NCBI GenBank assembly: GCA_032139905.1
Contig: JAQJDB010000007.1
Coordinates: 434,001-498,000 of the forward strand
Length of the DNA stretch: 64,000 nucleotides
Reading direction: 5' to 3'
Origin: Nitrospira sp. MA-1
GTDB taxonomy: Bacteria; Nitrospirota; Nitrospiria; Nitrospirales; UBA8639
Positions within the stretch are counted from its first letter, which is position 1; each line of letters begins with the position of its first letter. Shown in pieces: positions 508 through 32,804 of this stretch. Below the pieces are notes generated by a model, which made no database searches, was not told where the DNA came from, and worked only from the letters and a program-made list of their open reading frames with translations. Both the position numbers and the translations under genes were made by a program.

Positions 508-3500
508 ATGATGTCATCAAACCAGATGGCAGAACTCATCCGGAATAAGGATTGGACGGATACTCCCTTGGGAGATAGAGCCAACTGGCCCCCTCAGCTC
601 AAAACCTCCGTCCAAATAATTCTGGATTCGAGATTTCCTATGTTTATCTGGTGGGGAGAGCATCAGATCAATATTTATAACGATGCCTATATCCCGATGT
701 TGGGAAATCGGCATCCGGAGGCCTTGGGGGAATGTGCCTCGAAAATTTGGGCAGATATTTGGGAGGTCATTGATCCGCAAGTGCAAATGGTGTTTCAGGA
801 AGGTCGAGCAACCTGGAATGAAGACCTTCCGCTTTTTATGAGCAGATACGGGTTTTTGGAAGAAACCTTTTTTTCTTTTTCGTACAGTCCGATCAAGAAC
901 GATCAGGGCATGGTCGTGGGTCTCTTCTGTGCCGTGACCGAAGAAACAGGTCGAGTCTTAAAGGGGCGAAGACTCGACACCCTCCGGCAAATTTCCAAGG
1001 TCACCGAACGGTCAGAGTCGGTTGAAGAAGTCTGCCGGTTGTCGGCGGATGTTCTTGCCCGGAGTTCGCTGGATATCCCCTTCAGTTTGATATATCTATG
1101 GGACGCTGAAGAGCGTCATGTGTGTTTGAGGGCACAGTCGGGATTGGCGCCGGAATCCTCCCTTGTTCCGAATCGCCTGGAGGTGGATGGAGATAATTTT
1201 TATCCACGGCCGTGGTGGCCGGTGTCCTTTTCGCCCAGGTGGGAGGAGGCCGCGTTTTCCATTACGGTTGATTTGGGTGCTTCTGCAGGAGTCTGGCCGG
1301 AGCCCTGTCGGCAGGGCATGGTCTTACCTTTACCATCGTGGGAGCGAGAAAAAAAAGCCGGATATCTGGTTGTGGGGACCAGTCCGAGATTAGCGGTGAA
1401 TGGGAGATATTTTGAGTTTCTGAACTTGCTCGCCAACGGGATTTCCGGTTCTATCAACCGGGCGCAGGCGCTGGCCGAAGAGCGGAAACGGAATGAAGCA
1501 TTGGCGGAACTGAATCGTGCCAAAACAGAATTTTTCAGCAACGTGAGCCACGAGTTTCGAACGCCGCTGACACTGATTCTCGGTTCCTTGGATGAGGCGA
1601 TGCACCCGACCACTTTCCCCACGGCTCCGGCTGTGGCGGTGGCCCACCGGAATGCTTTGCGGATGCTAAAGTTGGTGAACACGCTATTGGACTTTTCCAG
1701 CCTGGAAGCGGGCCGGATGAAGGCACTATTTGAACCGGTGGATGTAAGCGGATTGACAAGTGACCTGGCTTCGACATTTGAATCGGCCATGAAAAAAGCC
1801 GGCCTGGAATTTATTGTGTCCTGTTCCACGCTGTCTCAACCGGTCTATGTTGATCGAAGTTCCTGGGAAAAAATCATTCTGAACCTGCTTTCTAATGCTC
1901 TGAAATTCACGCTGCAAGGACGGGTTTACGTGGAAGTCATTCCTCATGCGGAAGGCGTGGATGTTCGGGTTGGGGATTCCGGGGTCGGTATGAATCGGGA
2001 GACGCTTTCTCATGTGTTTGAGCGTTTTTTTAGGGCCAAGGAAGCCTTGGGACGAACATTTGAAGGAACCGGAATCGGTCTGGCCTTGGTGAAAGAGTTG
2101 GTGGAAATGCATGGCGGGAAGGTTCATGTTGAGAGTGAACCCGGAGAGGGAAGTGTGTTTACCGTGAGGGTCCCCTTCGGCTTTCATCACCTCCCGCCGG
2201 AGCAGGTAAGCCACACGTCCACGAAACCAACCGACGAGCGTTTAGCGAAGTCTTTCATTCTGGAATCCGAACAGTGGGCGGGAGGAATCGATCATGAGCC
2301 GTCCGGTCAAAAAGTTCTCCAGGATGAAAGAGATTCCGTTCAGAAGACGGATCGCTCACGTCCCATCATTTTATTGGTGGAAGACAATCGAGATATGCGG
2401 GACTATATGACGCGATTATTGCGGGCGGACTATGAGGTGGTTTCTGCATGTGATGGGCTGGAAGCCTTGGAGCAGGTTCACATGGTCCATCCCCATCTTA
2501 TTCTGAGTGATATCATGATGCCTCGCATTGATGGGCTCGAGTTGCTTAAACGGATTCGGTCCAATCGGGACCTGCAATCGACGCCGTTTATTTTCCTCTC
2601 GGCAAGGGCCGGTCAGGAGGCGCAGGTGGATGGACTGCTGACCGGTGCGGATGACTATCTGGTCAAACCGTTTTCGGCGGCAGAACTGCTGGCCAGAGTG
2701 AAAAAAACACTGGTATTGACAACGATGCGTCGTGCTGCGATCGAATATGAATCCCGCTTCCAGCATCTGGCTCACCACCCCGATGTCATGACCTGGATCA
2801 CAGAAGCAGACGGGAATTGTATCTTTCTCAGTCAAACCTGGTATGACTTTACCGGTCAGACGGAGGAAACCGGCCTGGGTGAGGGATGGATGACGGCTAT
2901 TCATCCTCACGATCGTTCATCCATTCAACAGGCGTTTTACGAAGCGAACAGAAAAAGACAATCCGTTCGACTGGAATATCGTCTTCGGAGTGCAAAGGGT
3001 GAGTATCACTACGTTCTGGATTCCGCCTCTCCCCGCTTTGAATCGGACGGCGGCTATCTGGGGTATGTCGGTTTGGTGCTGGATCTTTCCTATCAAAAAG
3101 AGATGGAAGAACAACAGCGGGAAAGTGAAGAACGGTTTCGCACGCTTGCCAATACGATTTCTCAATTTGCCTGGATGGCCGACTCGACGGGATGGATTTT
3201 TTGGTACAACGCACGTTGGTACGAGTATACCGGTACCACGCTCAAGGACATGGAAGGGTGGGGGTGGAAGACTGTCCATCATCCTGATCATGTCGACCGG
3301 GTGGTTGAGAAAATCAGCCGATGTTTTCAGACGGGTGAAATATGGGAAGACACCTTTCCTCTCAAGAGCAAGGACGGAGAATACCGGTGGTTCCTTTCCC
3401 GGGCCGTACCGATTCGGGATCAGAATGGGAAGGTGGTGCGATGGATTGGCACCAATACGGACATTACCGAATTAAAAACGATGCAGGAGCAACTCCAACA

Positions 3501-4320
3501 TCTGACAGCCAAATTGGAAAGTCGAATTGCCCGACGCACGGAGGAACTGCGCCATAACCAATCTCGCCTTCAATCGCTCATCGGGGAGCTGATTCTGACG
3601 GAACAGCGGGAACGACGCAGGATTGCGGAGGAACTTCATGATTTTTTGGCTCAGCTCCTTGTGGCCTGCCGGTTACGGGTCAGTAGCCTGGAGCAAATGG
3701 TGAGTGCTTCGGGGGGTCTGGTTTCTGTTCTTCAAGAAATTGATCGCATTCTCGATCAATCGTTGGGCTATACGCGCTCTCTGGTCGCTCAACTGGTCCC
3801 GTCGGTGCTGTATCAATTCGGGTTGTTAGAGGCCTTGCGGTGGTTGGCCGAGGATATGAAGGAATATGGGCTCTCTGTGGAAGTTCAAATGGATCGTGAC
3901 CATCTGACCCTCACGGAGAATGAGGCGGTGCTCCTGTTTCAATCCGTTCGTGAACTTATGCTGAACGTAGTGAAACATGCAGGTGTGAACAGGGTGTGCT
4001 TGGCTGTCACCCTTTCCTCACCGGAGGAGGTCTGCATCGAAATTGCGGATCAAGGCAAAGGATTCGATCTTCACCTCATCGAACAACACAGCCATTCCTC
4101 CAATCAATTCGGACTGTTCAGTATTCGGGAACGTATGTCTTTATTAGGTGGGCGGATGGTCATAGACTCAACTTCCGGTTCAGGGACACGCATCCGCCTG
4201 TATGCATCCCTGCCCGATCAGGCGCGACCGAATGCGGCCTTTTCTTCTCTGGCTCCGGCCCCGATGGTGGTTACGGAGATCAGTCAGGAATCAAGTCCGG
4301 AAAGGTCGTCAGGATTTTGA
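508..4320 (+). CDS. Hybrid sensor histidine kinase with two kinase cores
   Basis: This 1270-residue cytoplasmic signalling protein has no membrane segment. In order it shows a PAS-like domain (about 30-150), a GAF-like region (155-330), a classical HisKA box with phospho-acceptor H348 (NVSHEFRTPL) plus HATPase (about 455-565), a receiver (about 620-735, phospho-acceptor D668), two PAS domains (about 745-995), and then a second kinase of HisKA_3 type with H1044 (EELHDFLAQLL) and HATPase (about 1130-1230). Two complete kinase cores of different classes in one chain is uncommon. The second core matches those of the kinases at 7217, 16534, 24914 and 30263. The stop TGA at 4318-4320 is followed in the same frame by a receiver domain, so the protein may have lost a C-terminal receiver. 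The ligand is unknown. Confidence 0.9.
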   Translation: MMSSNQMAELIRNKDWTDTPLGDRANWPPQLKTSVQIILDSRFPMFIWWGEHQINIYNDAYIPMLGNRHPEALGECASKIWADIWEVIDPQVQMVFQEGRATWNEDLPLFMSRYGFLEETFFSFSYSPIKNDQGMVVGLFCAVTEETGRVLKGRRLDTLRQISKVTERSESVEEVCRLSADVLARSSLDIPFSLIYLWDAEERHVCLRAQSGLAPESSLVPNRLEVDGDNFYPRPWWPVSFSPRWEEAAFSITVDLGASAGVWPEPCRQGMVLPLPSWEREKKAGYLVVGTSPRLAVNGRYFEFLNLLANGISGSINRAQALAEERKRNEALAELNRAKTEFFSNVSHEFRTPLTLILGSLDEAMHPTTFPTAPAVAVAHRNALRMLKLVNTLLDFSSLEAGRMKALFEPVDVSGLTSDLASTFESAMKKAGLEFIVSCSTLSQPVYVDRSSWEKIILNLLSNALKFTLQGRVYVEVIPHAEGVDVRVGDSGVGMNRETLSHVFERFFRAKEALGRTFEGTGIGLALVKELVEMHGGKVHVESEPGEGSVFTVRVPFGFHHLPPEQVSHTSTKPTDERLAKSFILESEQWAGGIDHEPSGQKVLQDERDSVQKTDRSRPIILLVEDNRDMRDYMTRLLRADYEVVSACDGLEALEQVHMVHPHLILSDIMMPRIDGLELLKRIRSNRDLQSTPFIFLSARAGQEAQVDGLLTGADDYLVKPFSAAELLARVKKTLVLTTMRRAAIEYESRFQHLAHHPDVMTWITEADGNCIFLSQTWYDFTGQTEETGLGEGWMTAIHPHDRSSIQQAFYEANRKRQSVRLEYRLRSAKGEYHYVLDSASPRFESDGGYLGYVGLVLDLSYQKEMEEQQRESEERFRTLANTISQFAWMADSTGWIFWYNARWYEYTGTTLKDMEGWGWKTVHHPDHVDRVVEKISRCFQTGEIWEDTFPLKSKDGEYRWFLSRAVPIRDQNGKVVRWIGTNTDITELKTMQEQLQHLTAKLESRIARRTEELRHNQSRLQSLIGELILTEQRERRRIAEELHDFLAQLLVACRLRVSSLEQMVSASGGLVSVLQEIDRILDQSLGYTRSLVAQLVPSVLYQFGLLEALRWLAEDMKEYGLSVEVQMDRDHLTLTENEAVLLFQSVRELMLNVVKHAGVNRVCLAVTLSSPEEVCIEIADQGKGFDLHLIEQHSHSSNQFGLFSIRERMSLLGGRMVIDSTSGSGTRIRLYASLPDQARPNAAFSSLAPAPMVVTEISQESSPERSSGF

Positions 4321-16533: not shown

Positions 16534-18516
16534 TTAGACGGGCTTTTTCTGTTGCCAGGATTTTCTGACCATGGTGACTAAGCTTTCGGCCGGTCCTCCT
16601 TTCGTGACAAAAGTCTCGGCTCCTGCCTCTTGGAACCATCGGGCCACATCCGGAGTGTCGTAAACAGATAATCCGATAATCACAGTTTCAGGAATGGCTT
16701 CTTTAATCCTTCTGGTCGCTTCCAGACCGTCCATATTGGGCATATGAAGATCCATCACGATGACGTCAGGGCGAAGGGATTCACACAGGGTCATGGCTTG
16801 TACCCCGTCTTCTGCCTCTCCCACGACTTCGAAGTCCAACTGAGAGTTCAGGATATGACAAAACCCCTCACGAACCATCTTGTGATCGTCCACGAGAAGA
16901 ATTCGAATTTTCTCTGAATGAGAACGGAGGGAAGGTATCTTCTCGACCGCTCGCACTGTTGTTGGACGAGCAGTATGTGGTCGGAACTCCTCGATGCCCT
17001 TTTCTACCGGAATACGCAGGAGGACATGAGTCCCTTTCTGCAGGGTCGAATTGAGCACCATTTCTCCGCCGAGGGCTTCCAATCGTTCCCGGATGCTAAA
17101 GAGTCCAAAATTGGTTGGTGATTGCTCATTTCTGTCTTCGGCACTGTCTATAAAACCGCAGCCAAAATCTTCCACCTCGATCATCAGGTGGTGGTCCTGT
17201 TGAATGGCCAGGTTCACCGTCACTTCATTGACTCCGGAATGCTTGAGTACGTTATATAATAATTCACGAACCGATTGGAAGATGAGGACAGCCTGATCTT
17301 CCGGAAGGTTCAACGATAAATTTGCGCCGTTGACGTTGACGGTCAACCCCTGCTTCCTCATTTCAGATCCCAACCAGACGAGAGCTGCATAGAGTCCAAA
17401 TTCATAGAGACAGGTCGGACTGAGTTGGCTGACGAGTGTCCGCGTATAGGTCAAGGATTGGTCCAAGAGAGCATCCGCCTCCTGGATCACCTTTACGAGG
17501 CTTTCCGTATCGGTGAGCGATTGACCCTGACCTAATTTCAGTCGGCACACGACAAGGAGTTGTGCCAGATAATCATGAAGATCCGAAGCCAACCGACGTC
17601 GTTCGCGTTGTTCGGTGACTGTGAGATCTGAAGCCATGGCTCGTAAGCGCTCCTGGTTGCGAGTGAGTTCCTGGGTTCGTTGGATTACGCGTTCTTCCAG
17701 GGTGCGATTGAGTTCGGCTAATTTGTCCCTGGCATCTTTTTGCGCGCTTTTGTCCCGAACCACTTTGGCGAATCCAATGAGGTGGTCCGTTGAGTCGCGT
17801 ATGGCTGTCACTGCCCCGCTGGCCCAGAATCGCGACCCATCAGCTCGAACCAGCCAATTATCATCGTCCCCCTTTTCTACTGCCTCGGCCCTCAGGAGTT
17901 CGTTTTCCGGACGACCGTTGCGTTTGTCCTCATCGGTAAATAGCATAGAAAAATGTTTATGCAAGGCGGCGTCTTCCGGATAACCGAAGAGCCGCTCCGC
18001 TCCTGAATTCCAATGAGTAATGTTCCCGTGCAAGTCAAGCATGACAAAGGCCAAACCGGTGGCTCCATCCACAAATAACCGGTATTTTCTTTCGCTATCG
18101 CGGCGAATCCGGTCGTTCTTTTCCCGTTCTATGGCATAGTGCAGAATTCGGGAAAGTAGCACGGCATTCATGGAAGATTTCGGAACATAGTCCTGTGCCC
18201 CTAATTTGATCGCTTCAAGGGCTAAGGGTTCATCCTCATGCACGGTTAACACGACGAGTGGAATTACCGAGTTTGCCGACCGGATTCGTTTTAATGTTTC
18301 AAGGCCGTTGGTTTCGGGCAGGTTTAAATCAAGAAGGATGACGTCAAACGACGTGTTTTGAAGGGTTGTCAGAGCTTCGTTGAGTGTCGATGCGCGCGTC
18401 ATATAAAAAGGAGACATGCCGGAGGCATCCTTCAGCCGTTCCCGCACTAATTCCGCGTCAGCAGGATTGTCTTCCACGAGCAGGATGGAATGGGTTGGAG
18501 AATGAAGATCGCTCAT
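16534..18516 (-). CDS. Receiver-PAS-HisKA_3 kinase-receiver hybrid
   Basis: The 660-residue cytoplasmic protein has a receiver (about 8-128, Asp in VILLDLNLP), a PAS domain (145-260), a coiled coil, a HisKA_3 core (ERRRLASDLHDYLAQLL, about 300-320), HATPase (about 415-510) and a second receiver (about 540-655, Asp in VIVMDLHMP). It is the last gene of a three-gene minus-strand operon: its ATG overlaps the stop of the CheY-like gene by four bases (ATGA). The N-terminal receiver suggests it is controlled by an upstream kinase, most simply the membrane kinase at 18971. Confidence 0.9.
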   Translation of the reverse strand: MSDLHSPTHSILLVEDNPADAELVRERLKDASGMSPFYMTRASTLNEALTTLQNTSFDVILLDLNLPETNGLETLKRIRSANSVIPLVVLTVHEDEPLALEAIKLGAQDYVPKSSMNAVLLSRILHYAIEREKNDRIRRDSERKYRLFVDGATGLAFVMLDLHGNITHWNSGAERLFGYPEDAALHKHFSMLFTDEDKRNGRPENELLRAEAVEKGDDDNWLVRADGSRFWASGAVTAIRDSTDHLIGFAKVVRDKSAQKDARDKLAELNRTLEERVIQRTQELTRNQERLRAMASDLTVTEQRERRRLASDLHDYLAQLLVVCRLKLGQGQSLTDTESLVKVIQEADALLDQSLTYTRTLVSQLSPTCLYEFGLYAALVWLGSEMRKQGLTVNVNGANLSLNLPEDQAVLIFQSVRELLYNVLKHSGVNEVTVNLAIQQDHHLMIEVEDFGCGFIDSAEDRNEQSPTNFGLFSIRERLEALGGEMVLNSTLQKGTHVLLRIPVEKGIEEFRPHTARPTTVRAVEKIPSLRSHSEKIRILLVDDHKMVREGFCHILNSQLDFEVVGEAEDGVQAMTLCESLRPDVIVMDLHMPNMDGLEATRRIKEAIPETVIIGLSVYDTPDVARWFQEAGAETFVTKGGPAESLVTMVRKSWQQKKPV

Positions 18517-18956
18517 AACTCTGGTACTTTTGGAGGAAGTTTCACTACGGAGAGCCAGAAACTTTCGAGGGATTGAATCATTTTGATGAATCGCAGAACA
18601 TCGATGGGTTTGACCAGATAGGCATTAGCATGAAGATTGTAACTACGCAACACGTCTCCTTCGTCCTCGGAGGTGGTCAGCACGACTACGGGAATTGTGC
18701 GCGTGTGGGGATCAGATTTAATTTCCTTCAGAATCTCTCTCCCGTCCTTCTTCGGAAGGTTTAAGTCTAACAGAATAAGGTCCGGTCGGGGAGCATCCTG
18801 AAAGGGGGCTGTCTGTCGAATGAAGGACATGGCACTGACCCCGTCTTGAGCGACATGAATGGTATTATGGAGGCGCGCTGCCTGAAAGGCTTCCTGGGTC
18901 AGGCGGATATCAGCCGGATTATCTTCTATTAACAAAATTTCAATAGGATTTTGCAT
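18513..18956 (-). CDS. CheY/Rcp1-like response regulator
   Basis: This single receiver domain of 147 residues has phospho-acceptor Asp in LILLDLNLPKKDG and Lys in AYLVKPID. The sequence type is that of Rcp1-like regulators, which are usually partners of phytochrome-like HisKA kinases. It lies 14 bp after the PAS kinase of exactly that HisKA class and overlaps the next hybrid kinase by four bases. A phosphate path from membrane kinase to this receiver is likely; the role of the third gene is less certain. Confidence 0.9.
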   Translation of the reverse strand: MQNPIEILLIEDNPADIRLTQEAFQAARLHNTIHVAQDGVSAMSFIRQTAPFQDAPRPDLILLDLNLPKKDGREILKEIKSDPHTRTIPVVVLTTSEDEGDVLRSYNLHANAYLVKPIDVLRFIKMIQSLESFWLSVVKLPPKVPEL

Positions 18957-18970
18957 GAAAAATCTCCGGT

Positions 18971-20446
18971 TTATTTTGGTATGGTAAAGGAAAACTTGGT
19001 TCCGTTTCCCGGTTGGGATTCGACCCAGATGCGGCCCCCACGGCGCTCCACGATTTTCTTACAGATGGCCAGACCGATTCCGGTGCCCTGGTATTCTTCC
19101 CTGGTATGTAGTCGTTTGAAGGGAAGAAAAATTCGCTCGAAATATTCCGGTTCCACCCCAATCCCATTATCCTGGACTGAAAAAAGCCATTCGTTGGTTT
19201 TTTTCTGGGCGGAAAGATGAATGCGTGGTGGTTTCGGGCCATGAAATTTAATAGCATTGGTAATCAGATTCTGGAGCAGATGTTGAAATTGTGACCGATC
19301 CGTCCGAATGATGGGCAGAGGGTCATGAGTAATCGAAGCCTGCTTGTCTTCAATGACCATGAGGAGATGTTCGAGGATTTCCTGAAGCACTTCCTCGCCA
19401 TTGACCTGGACTGTGTTCAGCTCCTGGGCTTGGATTCTCGAATATTTTAGCAGGTCCTGAATGAGGGTTTGCATCCGATTCGCTCCATCGGTCACGAATC
19501 CAATAAATTCCCTACCCTGGTCGTCTAATTGGTCTTTATAGCGTTCCGCCAACAACTGCGTAAAGCCATGAATGGTGCGGAGGGGTTCTTGGAGATCATG
19601 AGAGGCAATATAGGCAAATTGTTCGAGGTCTTCATTTGATTGCTTCAGTGAGGCCGCATGGCTGGCCAATGTCAGGTTTTGTATGGCCAGGAGATTTTCC
19701 AACCCCTTTTGCTGGGAAATATCCCGTGCAATTTTAGAGGCGCCAATAACCTTTCCCCATCGGTCGATAATCGGAGAAATGGTTACCGATACAGGTATTT
19801 CCTGACCGTCCTTCCTGCGTCGAATCGTTTCAAAATTCTTTATCTGCTTGCCACTGTGGAGTTTTTCCAGAATATCTTTTTCTTCGGGAATCCGGTCTGG
19901 TGGAAAAAGAAATGTCAGGTATTGCCCGATACTCTCCTGTGGGGAATAACCGAACATCTGTTCGGCTCCGTTGTTCCAATTGGTGACCTTTCCCTCGAGT
20001 GTTTGACCGATGATGGCGTCATGCGTGGATTCCACGATGGACCCTAACCGAAGCCTGACCTCTGCTCCCTGACGATATTGATAGGTGAGTAGGGCGGTTG
20101 CCCAAATCATAAAAAGCGACAACAGACGATTGACCACAGCATTCCCGGCAATGGTGCTGCCGGAATGCACCACATTCACGCCCGGCGAATAGATTATTCC
20201 AATGATAGCCAAGACCGTACACACTCCTGCAACCATGAACGGGGATTTCGGATGTGGCAACCATGGGGTCAGCATAACGGCACTCACATATAACATGCCG
20301 ATTGCCACGCCTGTTTTGGTGTACAGGTCCAATATGAATATTGCACCTATGAGAGCGCAAATGGCTATCAAAAGGCTTGTATCCCATTTTGGGGAGCGAG
20401 TGCCTGTTTGAGTTCCGTCCTGAGGCAGCGTCATGACTTCATCCAT
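18971..20446 (-). CDS. Membrane PAS sensor histidine kinase
   Basis: The 491-residue protein begins with about four transmembrane helices (22-122), then a PAS domain (135-245), a short coiled coil, a HisKA domain of phytochrome-kinase type with H283 (YIASHDLQEPLRTI), and HATPase with N, G1 and G2 boxes to the C-terminus. GGTAGGAA precedes the ATG. It is the first gene of the operon with the CheY-like receiver and the REC-PAS-kinase-REC hybrid. The membrane part has no large periplasmic loop, so it may sense a membrane or intramembrane signal. Confidence 0.9.
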   Translation of the reverse strand: MDEVMTLPQDGTQTGTRSPKWDTSLLIAICALIGAIFILDLYTKTGVAIGMLYVSAVMLTPWLPHPKSPFMVAGVCTVLAIIGIIYSPGVNVVHSGSTIAGNAVVNRLLSLFMIWATALLTYQYRQGAEVRLRLGSIVESTHDAIIGQTLEGKVTNWNNGAEQMFGYSPQESIGQYLTFLFPPDRIPEEKDILEKLHSGKQIKNFETIRRRKDGQEIPVSVTISPIIDRWGKVIGASKIARDISQQKGLENLLAIQNLTLASHAASLKQSNEDLEQFAYIASHDLQEPLRTIHGFTQLLAERYKDQLDDQGREFIGFVTDGANRMQTLIQDLLKYSRIQAQELNTVQVNGEEVLQEILEHLLMVIEDKQASITHDPLPIIRTDRSQFQHLLQNLITNAIKFHGPKPPRIHLSAQKKTNEWLFSVQDNGIGVEPEYFERIFLPFKRLHTREEYQGTGIGLAICKKIVERRGGRIWVESQPGNGTKFSFTIPK

Positions 20447-24913: not shown

Positions 24914-26101
24914 TCAATGTGGGGGAGAAGGTGGTGACAAAGGAATGGTGAGAGAGGCCCGTGTGCCTTGGCCTGGATAAGAATTCAGCGATATTGTTCC
25001 ATGAAGCGCCGTCATTCGTCCCCTGATGCCGGATAAACCGAAATGATCCTGACCGGGAATCTCCCCCGCCATGGTTGCAGGATCAAAGCCGCATCCGTGA
25101 TCGGAAACCATGCAATGAAGGTGTGTGCCGTGAAGTTGGTGAATGCTGATCGTGGCTTGGTCGACGTGAGCGTGTTTAATCACATTAAATAATAACTCAC
25201 GAAGGGACCAATAGAGAAGAAATTCCTGATTTTCGGATAGGTCGGGCAAAGGGCGTTCGGCTTCGAGGGTGACGACCAACCCAAGCAACTTCATCTTTTT
25301 AGTCAGTTCCTCTAAAACCTTCAGTAGGCCTGATTGATGAAGGTTAAAAGAGTTCAGCTCCGTCATCAACGTTCGTGTATAGCTCAATGATTCCTGAAGG
25401 AACTGATCGACGGTATTGAGAAGACTCAAAACTTCCGGGTCTGATGTCAAGTGGCTTCCTTGAGCCAGCTTTATTCGGCCAACTGCCAACATTTGGGCCA
25501 GATGATCATGAAGCTCGCCCGCTAAGGCTCGCCGTTCCCGAGTTTCGGTTGAGATGAGGCTTTCCGAAAGCTCTAAGAGCTGTTGTGTATGGTCAAAAAC
25601 TAAATTGTTCCTTGCCCCTACATGATTATCCAATTCATCTTTGGCTTGTTGTAATTCTCGCTTTGCGAAATTTTTTTCATTTATCTCTTTTTGAAGTCGC
25701 ATGGTCAGAAATTGTTCTCGATGCCAGAGGGTTTCAAGCAGGCTTGTGGGCGTAATGGCTCCAATAAACCGCTGCCCGCTATCTATGACAGAGAAGGCAT
25801 CGATACGGTGTCGTTGGAAATCTGCGTACAGCACATCAAGAGGAGTGGAGGGTTCGACATGGGGGGACGTGGAACATGAGAGAAGATCCCCAAAAATCCT
25901 ATAAGGATATCGCCCTATCATATGTTTGGGGACGATGCCCAGAAATTGCTCGGAAGGCTTCTGGTTCACGACTTCAGAAAATACGGCATAGGCTTCATAA
26001 CTCTGTAGTTTATGATTCAGATTGAGGTCACGCAGGCCCATCTCTGCGGATACCATCAAAACGGAGGGACTGACGGCATCTTGTGCAGTTAAATGAACCA
26101 C
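24914..26101 (-). CDS. CBS-like domain HisKA_3 histidine kinase
   Basis: The 395-residue cytoplasmic protein has an N-terminal region with a CBS-like segment (TPLDVLYADFQRHRIDAFSVIDSGQRFIGAITPTSLL, about 83-123), a coiled coil, a HisKA_3 core (RERRALAGELHDHLAQML) and HATPase with DHGCGFD. The first 80 residues may be a second, degenerate CBS unit. CBS pairs usually bind adenosine nucleotides, so an energy-state input is possible. The GTG start lies ten bases after the stop of the gene at 26111, so the two are probably translated together. No receiver is attached. Confidence 0.8.
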   Translation of the reverse strand: MVHLTAQDAVSPSVLMVSAEMGLRDLNLNHKLQSYEAYAVFSEVVNQKPSEQFLGIVPKHMIGRYPYRIFGDLLSCSTSPHVEPSTPLDVLYADFQRHRIDAFSVIDSGQRFIGAITPTSLLETLWHREQFLTMRLQKEINEKNFAKRELQQAKDELDNHVGARNNLVFDHTQQLLELSESLISTETRERRALAGELHDHLAQMLAVGRIKLAQGSHLTSDPEVLSLLNTVDQFLQESLSYTRTLMTELNSFNLHQSGLLKVLEELTKKMKLLGLVVTLEAERPLPDLSENQEFLLYWSLRELLFNVIKHAHVDQATISIHQLHGTHLHCMVSDHGCGFDPATMAGEIPGQDHFGLSGIRGRMTALHGTISLNSYPGQGTRASLTIPLSPPSPPH

Positions 26102-28520: not shown

Positions 28521-29174
28521 ATGAGCAAAACTCGGGTACTTTTAGCTGAGGATCACGTCCTGGTAAGTGAGGGACTGACCAAATTGCTGGAAACGGATTT
28601 TACATTGGTGGGGACCGTTGTAGACGGTCATGCTTTAGTTCAAGCCGTCAAGAAACACACACCGGACATTGCGATTGTTGATATTTCCTTGCCCCTGCTG
28701 AATGGGTTGGAAGCGGCCCGTCAAATAAAAAAATGTGAACCCCAGACAAAAATAATTTTTCTCACCATGCATTCGGAAGACCATTTTGTCCAGGAAGCCT
28801 TTAAGGCTGGCGGGGCGGGGTATATCTTAAAACAATCTGCGACGGCAGAATTAGTATTTGCCATTAATGAGGTTTATCAGGGACGTACCTACGTTTCCCC
28901 TTCCATTGCCCAGGGAATCGTCAGCCAGGCCCTGAATCCCTCATCTAATTCAAAGAAGACGGCCCAACCGGAGACTCCCCCACTGACTCAACGACAGGTT
29001 GAAATTCTCCAACTGGTTGCTGAGGGGAAATCCAATAAAGACATTGCGGTTGTATTAAATCTGGCCGTCAAGACTGTGGAATTTCATAAAACCCGGATCA
29101 TGCAAATTTTGGGACTCAAGACCGCATCGGAACTCACGAAATATGCCATTGCCACCGGAATTATTTCCATTTAA
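28521..29174 (+). CDS. NarL/FixJ-type response regulator
   Basis: The 217-residue protein is a receiver (phospho-acceptor Asp in IAIVDISLP, Lys in GYILKQSA) followed by a LuxR-type helix-turn-helix (LTQRQVEILQLVAEGKSNKDIAVVLNLAVKTVEFHK). It is a DNA-binding transcription regulator. It is convergent with a close paralogue at 29295. HisKA_3 kinases normally pair with NarL-type regulators, so the receiver-less kinases at 24914 and 30263 are the likely inputs. Confidence 0.9.
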   Translation: MSKTRVLLAEDHVLVSEGLTKLLETDFTLVGTVVDGHALVQAVKKHTPDIAIVDISLPLLNGLEAARQIKKCEPQTKIIFLTMHSEDHFVQEAFKAGGAGYILKQSATAELVFAINEVYQGRTYVSPSIAQGIVSQALNPSSNSKKTAQPETPPLTQRQVEILQLVAEGKSNKDIAVVLNLAVKTVEFHKTRIMQILGLKTASELTKYAIATGIISI

Positions 29175-29294
29175 TAGCTTCTAGAAGTTCTTTCTTCCAG
29201 TCTCCAATCCGAGACTTTTCCTCCTCACTTCTACCGATACATCCTGTGATCATGCACGCCCTCTAATCCTCAGGAGCTTCTGTCCGCTCAATCC

Positions 29295-29954
29295 CTAATC
29301 AAGAGGAGAAATTCCTAATTTGACCGCGTATTTCGTGAGATCGGCCTTGGAATGAAGACCTAATGCCTGCACAATTTGCATTTTATGGAACGCCACCGTG
29401 CTTTGGGAAATAGTTAACACGTTGGCGATGTCCTTAGCAGAGAAACCTTGAGCCACAAGTTTTAACACCTCCTGCTGTCTGGGAGTCAATTTTCCGGAAA
29501 GTTCGGTACCCGGCATACCATCCATCTGGGCAAGAACGGCATATTGCACCTCCTCAGGAATTAAAGGAGAGAGGTATCTCTGTTTTTCCTGAACCTGTTG
29601 AATGGCTGATAATAATTCGCTGCCTGCCGTTTGCTTTGGCACGTAGCCTTCTCCTCCCGCACGAAACGCTTCCATGATAAAGGTGGGCTCCAAATGCATC
29701 GACACAAAAATTATTTTTACTGATGGGCAGGCGACTTTTAAGAGTCGAGCGGCTTCGTATCCGTTCTGGTCCGGCATTGAAATATCCATAAGGAGAATGT
29801 CGGGTTTTGCTCGTCGGACTTGGCTGACCAAATCGCTTGCGTCATGAGCCTCCCCCACAATGTCATGGTGGGGTTCGAGCAGTTTTTTGCAACTCTCCAA
29901 AACAAGAATATGATCGTCAACAAGGAATAATCTTGCTCGCTTGAGTGTGTTCAT
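29295..29954 (-). CDS. NarL/FixJ-type response regulator (paralogue)
   Basis: The 219-residue protein has the same layout as the regulator at 28521: receiver (Asp in ILLMDISMP, Lys in GYVPKQTA) and LuxR-type HTH (LTPRQQEVLKLVAQGFSAKDIANVLTISQSTVAFHK). The two share the C-terminal pattern DLTKYAxxxGI and arose by duplication. It is transcribed towards its sister and in the same direction as the ABM-kinase upstream at 30263, 300 bp away. Confidence 0.9.
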   Translation of the reverse strand: MNTLKRARLFLVDDHILVLESCKKLLEPHHDIVGEAHDASDLVSQVRRAKPDILLMDISMPDQNGYEAARLLKVACPSVKIIFVSMHLEPTFIMEAFRAGGEGYVPKQTAGSELLSAIQQVQEKQRYLSPLIPEEVQYAVLAQMDGMPGTELSGKLTPRQQEVLKLVAQGFSAKDIANVLTISQSTVAFHKMQIVQALGLHSKADLTKYAVKLGISPLD

Positions 29955-30262: not shown

Positions 30263-31741
30263 TTACGGGGATGGAGGAACGATGATGGTGATGGTCGTTC
30301 CCATTTTCGCGCTGGAAGTAATATCAAATTGTCCCTTTAACGCCCTTATGCGTTCCCGGTAAAAGAAGAGGCCAAGATGTCCCCGTTCTTGTTCAAGTTG
30401 CCGGGTTTCCGGATCAAACCCCTTTCCGGAGTCACTCACCCTTATCAGGAGAACATGTTCCGAAGGGCATTCCCAATGTATCGATGCGGTGGTAACTCCT
30501 GCATGTTTTAACACGTTGAGCAGTAACTCTCGCACTGTTTTATAAACTACGATGCTGATATCTTCCGCCACCTTCACCGGTAGGATCGTCTCAGGGCTTG
30601 CCACGGTTAAACCAAAGCGCTGCATGTCTTCGGAAAGATATTTGAGGGCAGTGAGTAAACCATGGTGCTGGAGTATGGACGGGTTTAAATCAGAGATCAG
30701 TGTTCGGGTGAACGTCAATGATTGATCGATCATTCCGTCAACTTCCTGAATCACCTTGGAATGTGACGGAGGAGTGAGCTTATGGTCTATTTGCCCGAGC
30801 TTGAGTCTGCAGGCGATGAGCATTTGGGCGAGATAATCGTGTAAATCATTTGCCAAATTTTGACGTTCGAATTGTTCGACAAGGGCTAACTTCACCAACA
30901 TGGCACGCAATTGTTCCTGATGGTAAACCAGGTCTTTTGTCCGTTCGGTCACCAGCTGATTCAAATATGAATTATTTTCCGACAGTTTGTTCCCGCTTTT
31001 TACTTCCTCTCGCATTTTGACCGTCATTTCGTTTTGAATCTGCATGAGTTCCACGAATGCCCTCTGGTTGAACTTTTCCGGTTCTTCCCCGATGAGAATG
31101 GTGGTGTCAGCAGAATTCTTCTGCACCAAACAGTCCAGTGTATGAGGGATTCCGGACGAATCGAGGAAATTAAGTCGCATCCGATTGCTGTGGCTGGAGA
31201 TCCCATCTTCAAGGATATCGCGCAGGTGCTTTTGGTCCGGATCAGTAAGAAATTCCCAGATAAATTTTGTCTGCAATTCCGCTCTGGACACATTGAGTTT
31301 GGTCAAGAGGACGTCATTGTAGACCTGAATCCGTCCATCAGGGGTCATGACGCAATACACAATGGTATCTGTCTGGTTGAGGAATTTTTCCAGGAGCAGG
31401 ATCGAGTCGCCCAGAAAATCCTGTAGTCCGCCCTGTGGCCCCGTTTGTGGGAGACGCTCCAGTTCAAGGATTTGCGTCACGGTGGGGTCCAGCTTCAGTC
31501 CTGTGGGGAGCATGCCGTGAGAAAGGCGATGGTCCGGGCTTTTATGCCAGGCGTGAAAGGTTTCCCGATCCGTCCAACGAGTCACCAAATGGAAAATCGT
31601 TTGGTCTGAGTGAGGCGTGTAGACTTCCATCCCTAAAAAGCCCGGAACGGCCTCAACCAATCGCGGGCGCTTTTGAAAGGCTTCGACCACGTCCCCTTCA
31701 AGTCCGTTTGCCACCTTAAATCGTGATATGACTAAAACCAT
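30263..31741 (-). CDS. ABM-domain/PAS HisKA_3 sensor kinase
   Basis: The 492-residue cytoplasmic protein begins with an antibiotic-biosynthesis-monooxygenase (ABM, HmoA-like) domain (1-97). This contains the RWTDRETFHAWHKSPDH motif (W65, H66, H71) and PGFLGMEV. A PAS domain (about 118-222), a coiled coil, a HisKA_3 core with H301 (NLANDLHDYLAQML) and HATPase (about 390-490) follow. ABM proteins bind heme or quinol-like substrates; the active-site Asn of IsdG-type enzymes is at the place of Ser6 here, so the domain may sense rather than catalyse. It follows the cobalamin-binding gene by 13 nt, with AAGGAC inside that gap. Confidence 0.85.
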   Translation of the reverse strand: MVLVISRFKVANGLEGDVVEAFQKRPRLVEAVPGFLGMEVYTPHSDQTIFHLVTRWTDRETFHAWHKSPDHRLSHGMLPTGLKLDPTVTQILELERLPQTGPQGGLQDFLGDSILLLEKFLNQTDTIVYCVMTPDGRIQVYNDVLLTKLNVSRAELQTKFIWEFLTDPDQKHLRDILEDGISSHSNRMRLNFLDSSGIPHTLDCLVQKNSADTTILIGEEPEKFNQRAFVELMQIQNEMTVKMREEVKSGNKLSENNSYLNQLVTERTKDLVYHQEQLRAMLVKLALVEQFERQNLANDLHDYLAQMLIACRLKLGQIDHKLTPPSHSKVIQEVDGMIDQSLTFTRTLISDLNPSILQHHGLLTALKYLSEDMQRFGLTVASPETILPVKVAEDISIVVYKTVRELLLNVLKHAGVTTASIHWECPSEHVLLIRVSDSGKGFDPETRQLEQERGHLGLFFYRERIRALKGQFDITSSAKMGTTITIIVPPSP

Positions 31742-31754
31742 TGATATGTGTCCT

Positions 31755-32804
31755 TTAAGGTAATAGTGCCGTTAAGGACCGTAAATCATACGCAAACGCA
31801 TCGGCGCCTATATCCCGATACACATCCGGAAGTGCACGAAAGGCTGATCCTCCAACCAGGATGCGGGGAGTGGCAGCGGGGGGGAAATGGTTTCGAATGT
31901 CCCTGATCAAATCTCTCACGGTCGGAACTTTTAAAACCATGGTTGCGGAAATTCCGACGAGAGTCGGTCGGAAATCCTTAATCAATTGGAGGATAGATTG
32001 ATGAGGAACATTCACCCCTAAAAATCGAATATCCCATCCCTGCAATTCCAGCATATCTGCGACCATGTGGGGTCCGATTTGATGCAGTTCACCTTCTACG
32101 CCGGTGACGATCCCTTTCCCTTGCAAGGGTTGGGCAGGTGTCACACACGTATATAAATTGGCCATGACATATTGGGTGATGGCGGTGGCCACGTGTTCTT
32201 GAGCGACGGAAATGTGATTGGCTTCCCAAAGGCTGCCTATCTTATACAACGATTCTTGAAAGAGCTCCACATACACATCCGAGAGAGAGCGGGTACTTGA
32301 AAAGGCCTCAAGCGCGATCGTTCTGGCCGCATGGCGGTCACCGGCCAAAAGAGCTTGAAGGAAAACCTCCTGATGGAGTGCTATGGGAGTTGTTGAGCGT
32401 GCGGGGGTTTGAGGTTCTGGTGGTTCCGATTCTGGGGTCTCCAACAAATGGGACCGAACGACTGTTTTTTCGGGCTCGGTCAGGTGGGGTTCCAATGCAT
32501 GAGAAATGTGTTCCAAAAATCGCTGTAACACATGTTGCGGAATGTTTCTTGTCTGGAGCACCTTTGTCGTCCAACGCAGATATTGTCTGAATGTGTCCTT
32601 GTTTCCAAATTCAATGGCCGTTCTGAGAAAGGTCAAGTGGTAGCGTGCATCGGTGATACAGTGGTTTTTGGCAACTTCTCCCTGTTCTTTGGTCTCGGGA
32701 TGTTGTTGGAGAAATGTGGTCGTGATGACCTCAATGACGTCTCGTTCAAGAAATCGAATTTTTTCTGCAAGCCGGTGCCGGTCGTGTGTTTGAATGTCTT
32801 TCAT
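31755..32804 (-). CDS. Cobalamin-binding protein with CarH-type signature
   Basis: The 349-residue protein has an alpha-helical N-terminal domain (1-118) of unknown family, a Pro/Glu linker (121-140), a four-helix B12 cap domain (about 143-222), and a Rossmann B12-binding domain (about 228-345). W193-x9-E203-H204 matches the W-x9-EH motif known from CarH/LitR adenosylcobalamin photoreceptors. E239-L-H241-Q-I-G244 fits the ExHxxG cobalt-ligand motif, with H241 as lower ligand; VGIS and LVGGSAF follow. There is no MerR DNA-binding domain, so output must pass to another protein, most simply the ABM-kinase downstream. Light or cobalamin sensing is inferred. Confidence 0.85.
   Translation of the reverse strand: MKDIQTHDRHRLAEKIRFLERDVIEVITTTFLQQHPETKEQGEVAKNHCITDARYHLTFLRTAIEFGNKDTFRQYLRWTTKVLQTRNIPQHVLQRFLEHISHALEPHLTEPEKTVVRSHLLETPESEPPEPQTPARSTTPIALHQEVFLQALLAGDRHAARTIALEAFSSTRSLSDVYVELFQESLYKIGSLWEANHISVAQEHVATAITQYVMANLYTCVTPAQPLQGKGIVTGVEGELHQIGPHMVADMLELQGWDIRFLGVNVPHQSILQLIKDFRPTLVGISATMVLKVPTVRDLIRDIRNHFPPAATPRILVGGSAFRALPDVYRDIGADAFAYDLRSLTALLP

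Follow-up and report, generated by a model that had tools for sequence, protein, structure and literature searches.

Photocobilins, in which a globin-like photoglobin domain is fused to an adenosylcobalamin (AdoCbl)-binding domain, are an already known family, described in 2022-2024, and are grouped by whether the AdoCbl domain is N- or C-terminal (PMC10979010). In the photocobilin SasPcob, Asp270 and Trp296 contact biliverdin, excitation of the bilin can drive the same AdoCbl photolysis, and photolysis changes the dimer state (PMC10979010). Standalone photocobilins can also act through contact with a separate enzyme (PMC10979010). The light sensors CarH and LitR combine an AdoCbl domain with a W-x9-EH motif and an N-terminal MerR DNA-binding domain. 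Biliverdin-dependent photoreceptors need a source of bilin, and many photocobilin and phytochrome genomes are without a recognised PF01126 heme oxygenase. For bacteriophytochromes, the bilin is made by BphO, an HO-1-type heme oxygenase (PF01126) encoded with the photoreceptor. The heme degraders of the IsdG family have an ABM ferredoxin-like fold and an Asn-Trp-His catalytic triad, and mutation of the Asn in LFO1 reduced heme degradation (PMC5557675).

The window analysed here, a stretch of 64,000 nucleotides from Nitrospira sp. MA-1, contains a photocobilin gene, P0001, at positions 31755..32804 of the minus strand. In the ORF listing of the window its frame reads from 32804 to 31755 and encodes 349 residues; the plus strand across 31755-32804 has many stops. 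The AlphaFold model has a mean pLDDT of 91.9 and a pTM of 0.88. The best sequence matches in the PDB are the photocobilins 8J2X and 8J2W from Saccharothrix (E ~1e-26), and CarH ranks behind them (E ~1e-7). Judged by sequence and model, P0001 is a two-chromophore photocobilin with a C-terminal B12 domain, and is predicted to bind both chromophores and to respond to light. The order of its domains is the reverse of that in SasPcob. This is no novelty, as photocobilins with a C-terminal AdoCbl domain are already described in PMC10979010 and the globin-then-B12 order is widespread, ranging from Paenibacillus and heliobacteria to Bacteroidota and Lokiarchaeota MAGs. Lokiarchaeota and Bathyarchaeota MAGs (L050, L081, L102) also encode photoglobin-B12 proteins, which may reflect contamination of the MAGs. 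At three other loci (L025, L026, L094) a B12 domain as in P0001 is joined to another N-terminal domain without the bilin Asp.

The AdoCbl-binding domain of P0001, a four-helix cap followed by a Rossmann domain, spans residues 138-349 (31758..32393, minus strand). Pfam assigns B12-binding_2 to residues 146-217 (E 4.7e-15) and B12-binding to residues 230-336 (E 1.1e-18), and the B12 region of the AlphaFold model superimposes on SasPcob (8J2W) with a Z-score of 27.2 over 205 residues and an rmsd of 1.7. The adenosyl-cap motif W193-x9-E203-H204 (32193..32228, minus strand) and the motif E239-L-H241-Q-I-G244 (32073..32090, minus strand), in which H241 would be the lower axial cobalt ligand by homology (PMC10979010), lie at the residues given in the initial annotation, and the VGIS and LVGGSAF stretches that it named are likewise present. 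W193, E203, H204, H241, G244 and P267 are identical in all 79 aligned relatives, which means that these motifs are not there by chance. The signature published for light-responsive B12 domains, GxxW, EH, GxxH and GxxxP, correctly singled out light-responsive proteins (PMC11796333), and P0001 carries all four elements (G190-W193, E203-H204, G238-H241 and G263-P267). It thus shares with SasPcob and AbDPcob (PDB 8J2W/8J2X/8J2Y; PMC10979010) an AdoCbl domain with W-x9-EH and ExH, as well as a photoglobin with the key Asp and Trp. It also resembles CarH and LitR in its W-x9-EH light-sensing domain. Unlike them, P0001 has no MerR domain (no Pfam MerR match; a photoglobin stands in its place), and its predicted output is through a kinase rather than DNA binding. 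The initial annotation had treated this absence of MerR as unusual, a point that falls away since photoreceptive B12 domains without MerR, such as photocobilins and AerR, are already known.

The N-terminal 118 residues had been set apart there as a different helical domain. The AlphaFold model indeed places a separate helical domain at the N-terminus, for which Pfam yields no HTH or MerR match that would make it DNA-binding. It is, however, not a novel domain: by fold and profile matches, residues 5-127 (32424..32792, minus strand) are a phycocyanin-like photoglobin of the bilin-binding type, with bilin binding predicted. The region matches allophycocyanin with a Z-score of 16.4 over 122 residues. 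Because the B12 domain dominates a structure search with the whole model, the assignment also leans on a profile built from the globin domains of 27 relatives. Among its matches are the SasPcob globin (E 1.3e-7), AbPcob (E 4.5e-5) and numerous allophycocyanins, the best of them at E ~1e-6. Pfam has no family above threshold for the N-terminus; an RNase III-like match (E 0.02) is weak and was taken as chance.

Three residues of this domain are expected to line the bilin pocket. The motif C49-I-T-D52 (32649..32660, minus strand) aligns with the phycobiliprotein CxRD chromophore motif, C49 taking the place of the chromophore Cys, while D52 aligns with SasPcob Asp270. W78 (32571..32573, minus strand) is the equivalent of SasPcob Trp296 and invariant in 79 of 79 relatives. 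D52 is kept in 71 of the 79, and its spacing of 26 residues to W78 equals that between D270 and W296. In contrast to SasPcob and AbPcob, P0001 has a Cys at the bilin position. It resembles the photoglobin of Schneider et al. 2022, as later papers describe it, in combining a non-heme globin with a B12 domain, in its link to signalling genes and in a CxxD motif; PMC10151467 reports CxQD for the photoglobin family, where P0001 has CITD.

The novelty of the locus lies in the partner of P0001. As stated in the initial annotation, a kinase follows: only 13 bp downstream of the photocobilin lies a gene for a soluble histidine kinase of 492 residues with the architecture ABM-PAS-HisKA_3-HATPase (30263..31741, minus strand; Pfam). 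Its sequence lacks hydrophobic segments of the kind seen in membrane helices, and its HisKA_3 domain (30677..30868, minus strand) has the phospho-acceptor H301, followed by a HATPase_c domain. A separate histidine kinase bearing an ABM domain also distinguishes the predicted output of P0001 from that of SasPcob and AbDPcob. The photocobilin gene was found in seven of 49 Nitrospiraceae genomes searched, and the gene-bearing genomes keep the photocobilin-kinase pair, with a gap of 13-15 bp on intact contigs. A receiver-LuxR response regulator lies 308 bp further downstream (29295..29954, minus strand; Pfam), an arrangement shared by five further genomes of the genus. The pair is also kept in the genome G022, although the proteins are only ~52-56% identical there and the regulator is missing beside them, which marks the two-gene unit as the conserved element. 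The conserved kinase partner makes phosphotransfer the likely output of P0001. The next step, from kinase to regulator, is suggested by gene order, with the regulator at 29295..29954 as one candidate target and a second, divergent receiver-LuxR regulator (28521..29174, plus strand; Pfam) as the alternative. The proposal of a light sensor acting through phosphotransfer is thus largely right, given the light signature, the photocobilin relatives and the kinase pair, but the family was already published.

The most informative part of the kinase, which the initial annotation missed, is its N-terminal ABM domain of 97 residues (31451..31741, minus strand). It is the best conserved part of the protein, being 78% identical to its counterpart in G022, while the PAS/linker region reaches 43% and the kinase core 55%. 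We propose that it is a heme monooxygenase that makes bilin. Like IsdG, MhuD and HmoB, it has a ferredoxin-like ABM fold with a conserved Trp and, ten residues further on, a conserved His; these two, Trp65 and His75, correspond to the Trp and His of the heme degraders, which are also the best named matches at the level of sequence profiles. The fold is shared with IsdG, MhuD and HmoB but also with non-heme ABM oxygenases, and fold scores give no clear separation between the two groups. The subfamily differs from these enzymes in being linked to photoreceptors and in its triad, which reads Ser-Trp-His (S6, W65 and H75 in the kinase), with Ser at the catalytic Asn position in all 92 scorable sequences. 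This places it outside the IsdG family as defined in PMC5557675. Despite this, a function like that of a heme oxygenase is still the best inference. Three Paenibacillus photocobilins (L078, L090, L099) are preceded by a different type of ABM, also Ser-Trp-His, which is weakly related to the main subfamily.

Beyond Nitrospirales, the subfamily occurs as a standalone protein of ~99 residues. Of 72 full-length photocobilin loci in the genome collection, 19 have it at the photocobilin gene. In 18 of these it is the gene immediately upstream in the same orientation, with end-to-start gaps of -109 to 115 bp, and in one it is divergent, 130 bp off. The hosts include Verrucomicrobiota, Bacteroidota, Acidobacteriota, Gemmatimonadota and Planctomycetota, sulfur gammaproteobacteria, a syntrophobacterium and a myxobacterial MAG, and histidine kinases often come next. 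Among 345 evenly drawn Bacteroidota, five carry the subfamily, in each case immediately upstream of a photocobilin. Four of these five genomes were newly found, and a HisKA kinase comes next in all three that were scanned. A search of 50 photocobilin genomes gave 21 strong ABM matches, one per genome, of which 20 lie at the photocobilin or close to it. The remaining one, in Pontibacter diazotrophicus, lies directly upstream of a bacteriophytochrome (PAS_2-GAF-PHY) with a biliverdin-type Cys near its N-terminus. Cys49 tracks this linkage, occurring in 18 of 25 ABM-linked versus 8 of 51 unlinked photoglobins (Fisher P 4e-6, a value that ignores relatedness).

The Pontibacter case finds its counterpart in the Hymenobacteraceae, where we counted the ABM subfamily, PF01126 and phytochromes (PF00360) in 200 genomes. 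ABM is present in 70 and PF01126 in 76, and the two never occur together, against 26.6 genomes expected (hypergeometric P 5e-20, which ignores relatedness). Phytochromes are found in 163 of the 200, and 144 of these 163 have exactly one of ABM or PF01126. The other 19 phytochrome genomes at first count have neither; 16 of them (all but G862, G925 and G992) were inspected, and each carries a divergent heme oxygenase gene overlapping or just before the phytochrome gene, so that for these 16 the idea of a phytochrome genome without any heme oxygenase was rejected. Only two ABM genomes are without a phytochrome, those of Adhaeribacter soli and A. terrigena, and both have the ABM beside a photocobilin. 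By position, 41 of 66 Hymenobacteraceae ABM loci have a phytochrome within ~4.3 kb, in many cases within 200 bp, while four adjoin a photocobilin; a fifth photocobilin-adjoining locus in the set examined is from an acidobacterium and is not counted here. At the other 21 (e.g. L193, L194, L197-L200) neither photoreceptor is within ~6 kb, and the phytochromes are elsewhere in these genomes. On the phytochrome tree, at least two switches between linkage to heme oxygenase and linkage to ABM are needed; since two suffice for the exclusion, the 200 genomes are not independent. ABM appears to replace the heme oxygenase in the Hymenobacteraceae phytochrome genomes that carry it. It sits in the genomic position of BphO and, by inference, does the same job, while belonging to an unrelated fold and family. 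The exclusion is not universal, as PF01126 also occurs in three of the 21 ABM-positive photocobilin genomes from outside Nitrospirales, none of the three being Hymenobacteraceae. None of nine Nitrospiraceae genomes tested has a match to PF01126, the one heme oxygenase family searched there, with the control working.

The simplest reading of this linkage and of the replacement of heme oxygenase is that the ABM makes bilin. We assign a probability of roughly 0.6 to an explanation in which P0001 acts as a photocobilin that switches the downstream kinase, with the ABM domain serving as an alternative heme oxygenase whose bilin loads the photoglobin. Here, the N-terminal photoglobin would hold a biliverdin-type bilin at C49, D52 and W78, and the C-terminal CarH-type domain would hold AdoCbl, with H241 below the cobalt and W193, E203 and H204 around the adenosyl group. 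By homology with SasPcob, the Co-C bond would break, and the dark-state dimer loosen, when AdoCbl absorbs green light or the bilin absorbs red light. The altered P0001 may then switch the histidine kinase through protein contact, and the kinase would phosphorylate a LuxR-type response regulator. The contact with a separate enzyme reported for standalone photocobilins is what this pair would require. The ABM domain of the kinase would open heme and so produce the bilin with which the photoglobin is loaded; chromophore maker and output kinase would then be united in one polypeptide.

The broader proposal is that the Ser-Trp-His ABM subfamily forms a second, structurally unrelated heme oxygenase for photoreceptors. 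Photocobilins of many phyla would obtain their biliverdin from it, as would the bacteriophytochromes of genomes without PF01126, and in Nitrospirales it would be fused to a sensor kinase, one protein making the chromophore and carrying the light signal. We consider this slightly better than an even bet. Our text searches found no paper that links the subfamily to biliverdin photoreceptors. If correct, the subfamily would answer where the chromophore comes from in genomes without PF01126, add a type of bilin-forming enzyme usable in optogenetics and make photocobilin operons recognisable from DNA. Nitrospirales would gain a defined two-colour light-sensing two-component system.

The strongest competitor to a bilin-making ABM, which we nevertheless think unlikely, is that the subfamily makes no bilin and serves photocobilins and phytochromes as a heme- or bilin-binding sensor, a carrier or a chromophore-loading factor. 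The invariant Ser in place of the IsdG-type catalytic Asn (92/92) would fit such a role, MhuD R26S, which has this fold, binds biliverdin (PDB 6PLE), and the fusion to a kinase in Nitrospirales is what a sensor input would look like. However, W65 and H75 are retained, and a loading role leaves it unexplained that PF01126 is missing from phytochrome genomes with ABM but present in the others, often as the gene preceding the phytochrome.

Slightly less probable is a photoglobin that is structural or vestigial. P0001 would then sense green light through AdoCbl alone, as a CarH-like protein, and act on the kinase, with the ABM serving simply for input or dimerisation. In AbDPcob, biliverdin binding is poor and AdoCbl is enough for function (PMC10979010), and most photocobilin loci outside the ABM clusters are without Cys49, just as most are without PF01126. 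Yet P0001 retains C49, D52 and W78, while AbPcob has a His for the Asp, and the ABM subfamily goes with bilin photoreceptors of two unrelated kinds.

That P0001 senses cobalamin status or redox and is not a photoreceptor seems improbable. Light action is not established for every AdoCbl-binding regulator, but the complete signature (PMC11796333) and the fusion of a bilin-type globin to the B12 domain speak for a photoreceptor here. A plain methyltransferase corrinoid protein, which would share the B12-binding folds, was already disfavoured and can be practically dismissed, as P0001 keeps the W-x9-EH cap, scores far under all corrinoid-protein cut-offs and has kinases, regulators, SOD and PepSY but no methyltransferase among its scanned neighbours.

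Two further B12 proteins with MerR domains are encoded in the same genome. One (L004, G000:C6:784432-784866 region; 1093-1992, plus strand) has an intact W-x9-EH and is CarH-like. In the other (L002, G000:C6:773905-774315 region; 1375-2334, minus strand) the motif reads W-x9-EQ, the cap His being lost. The window itself is dense in two-component genes (508-4317, plus strand; 16537-20446 and 24917-26101, minus strand; 28521-29954), which encode hybrid kinases, a CBS-domain HisKA_3 kinase and the two LuxR-type regulators.
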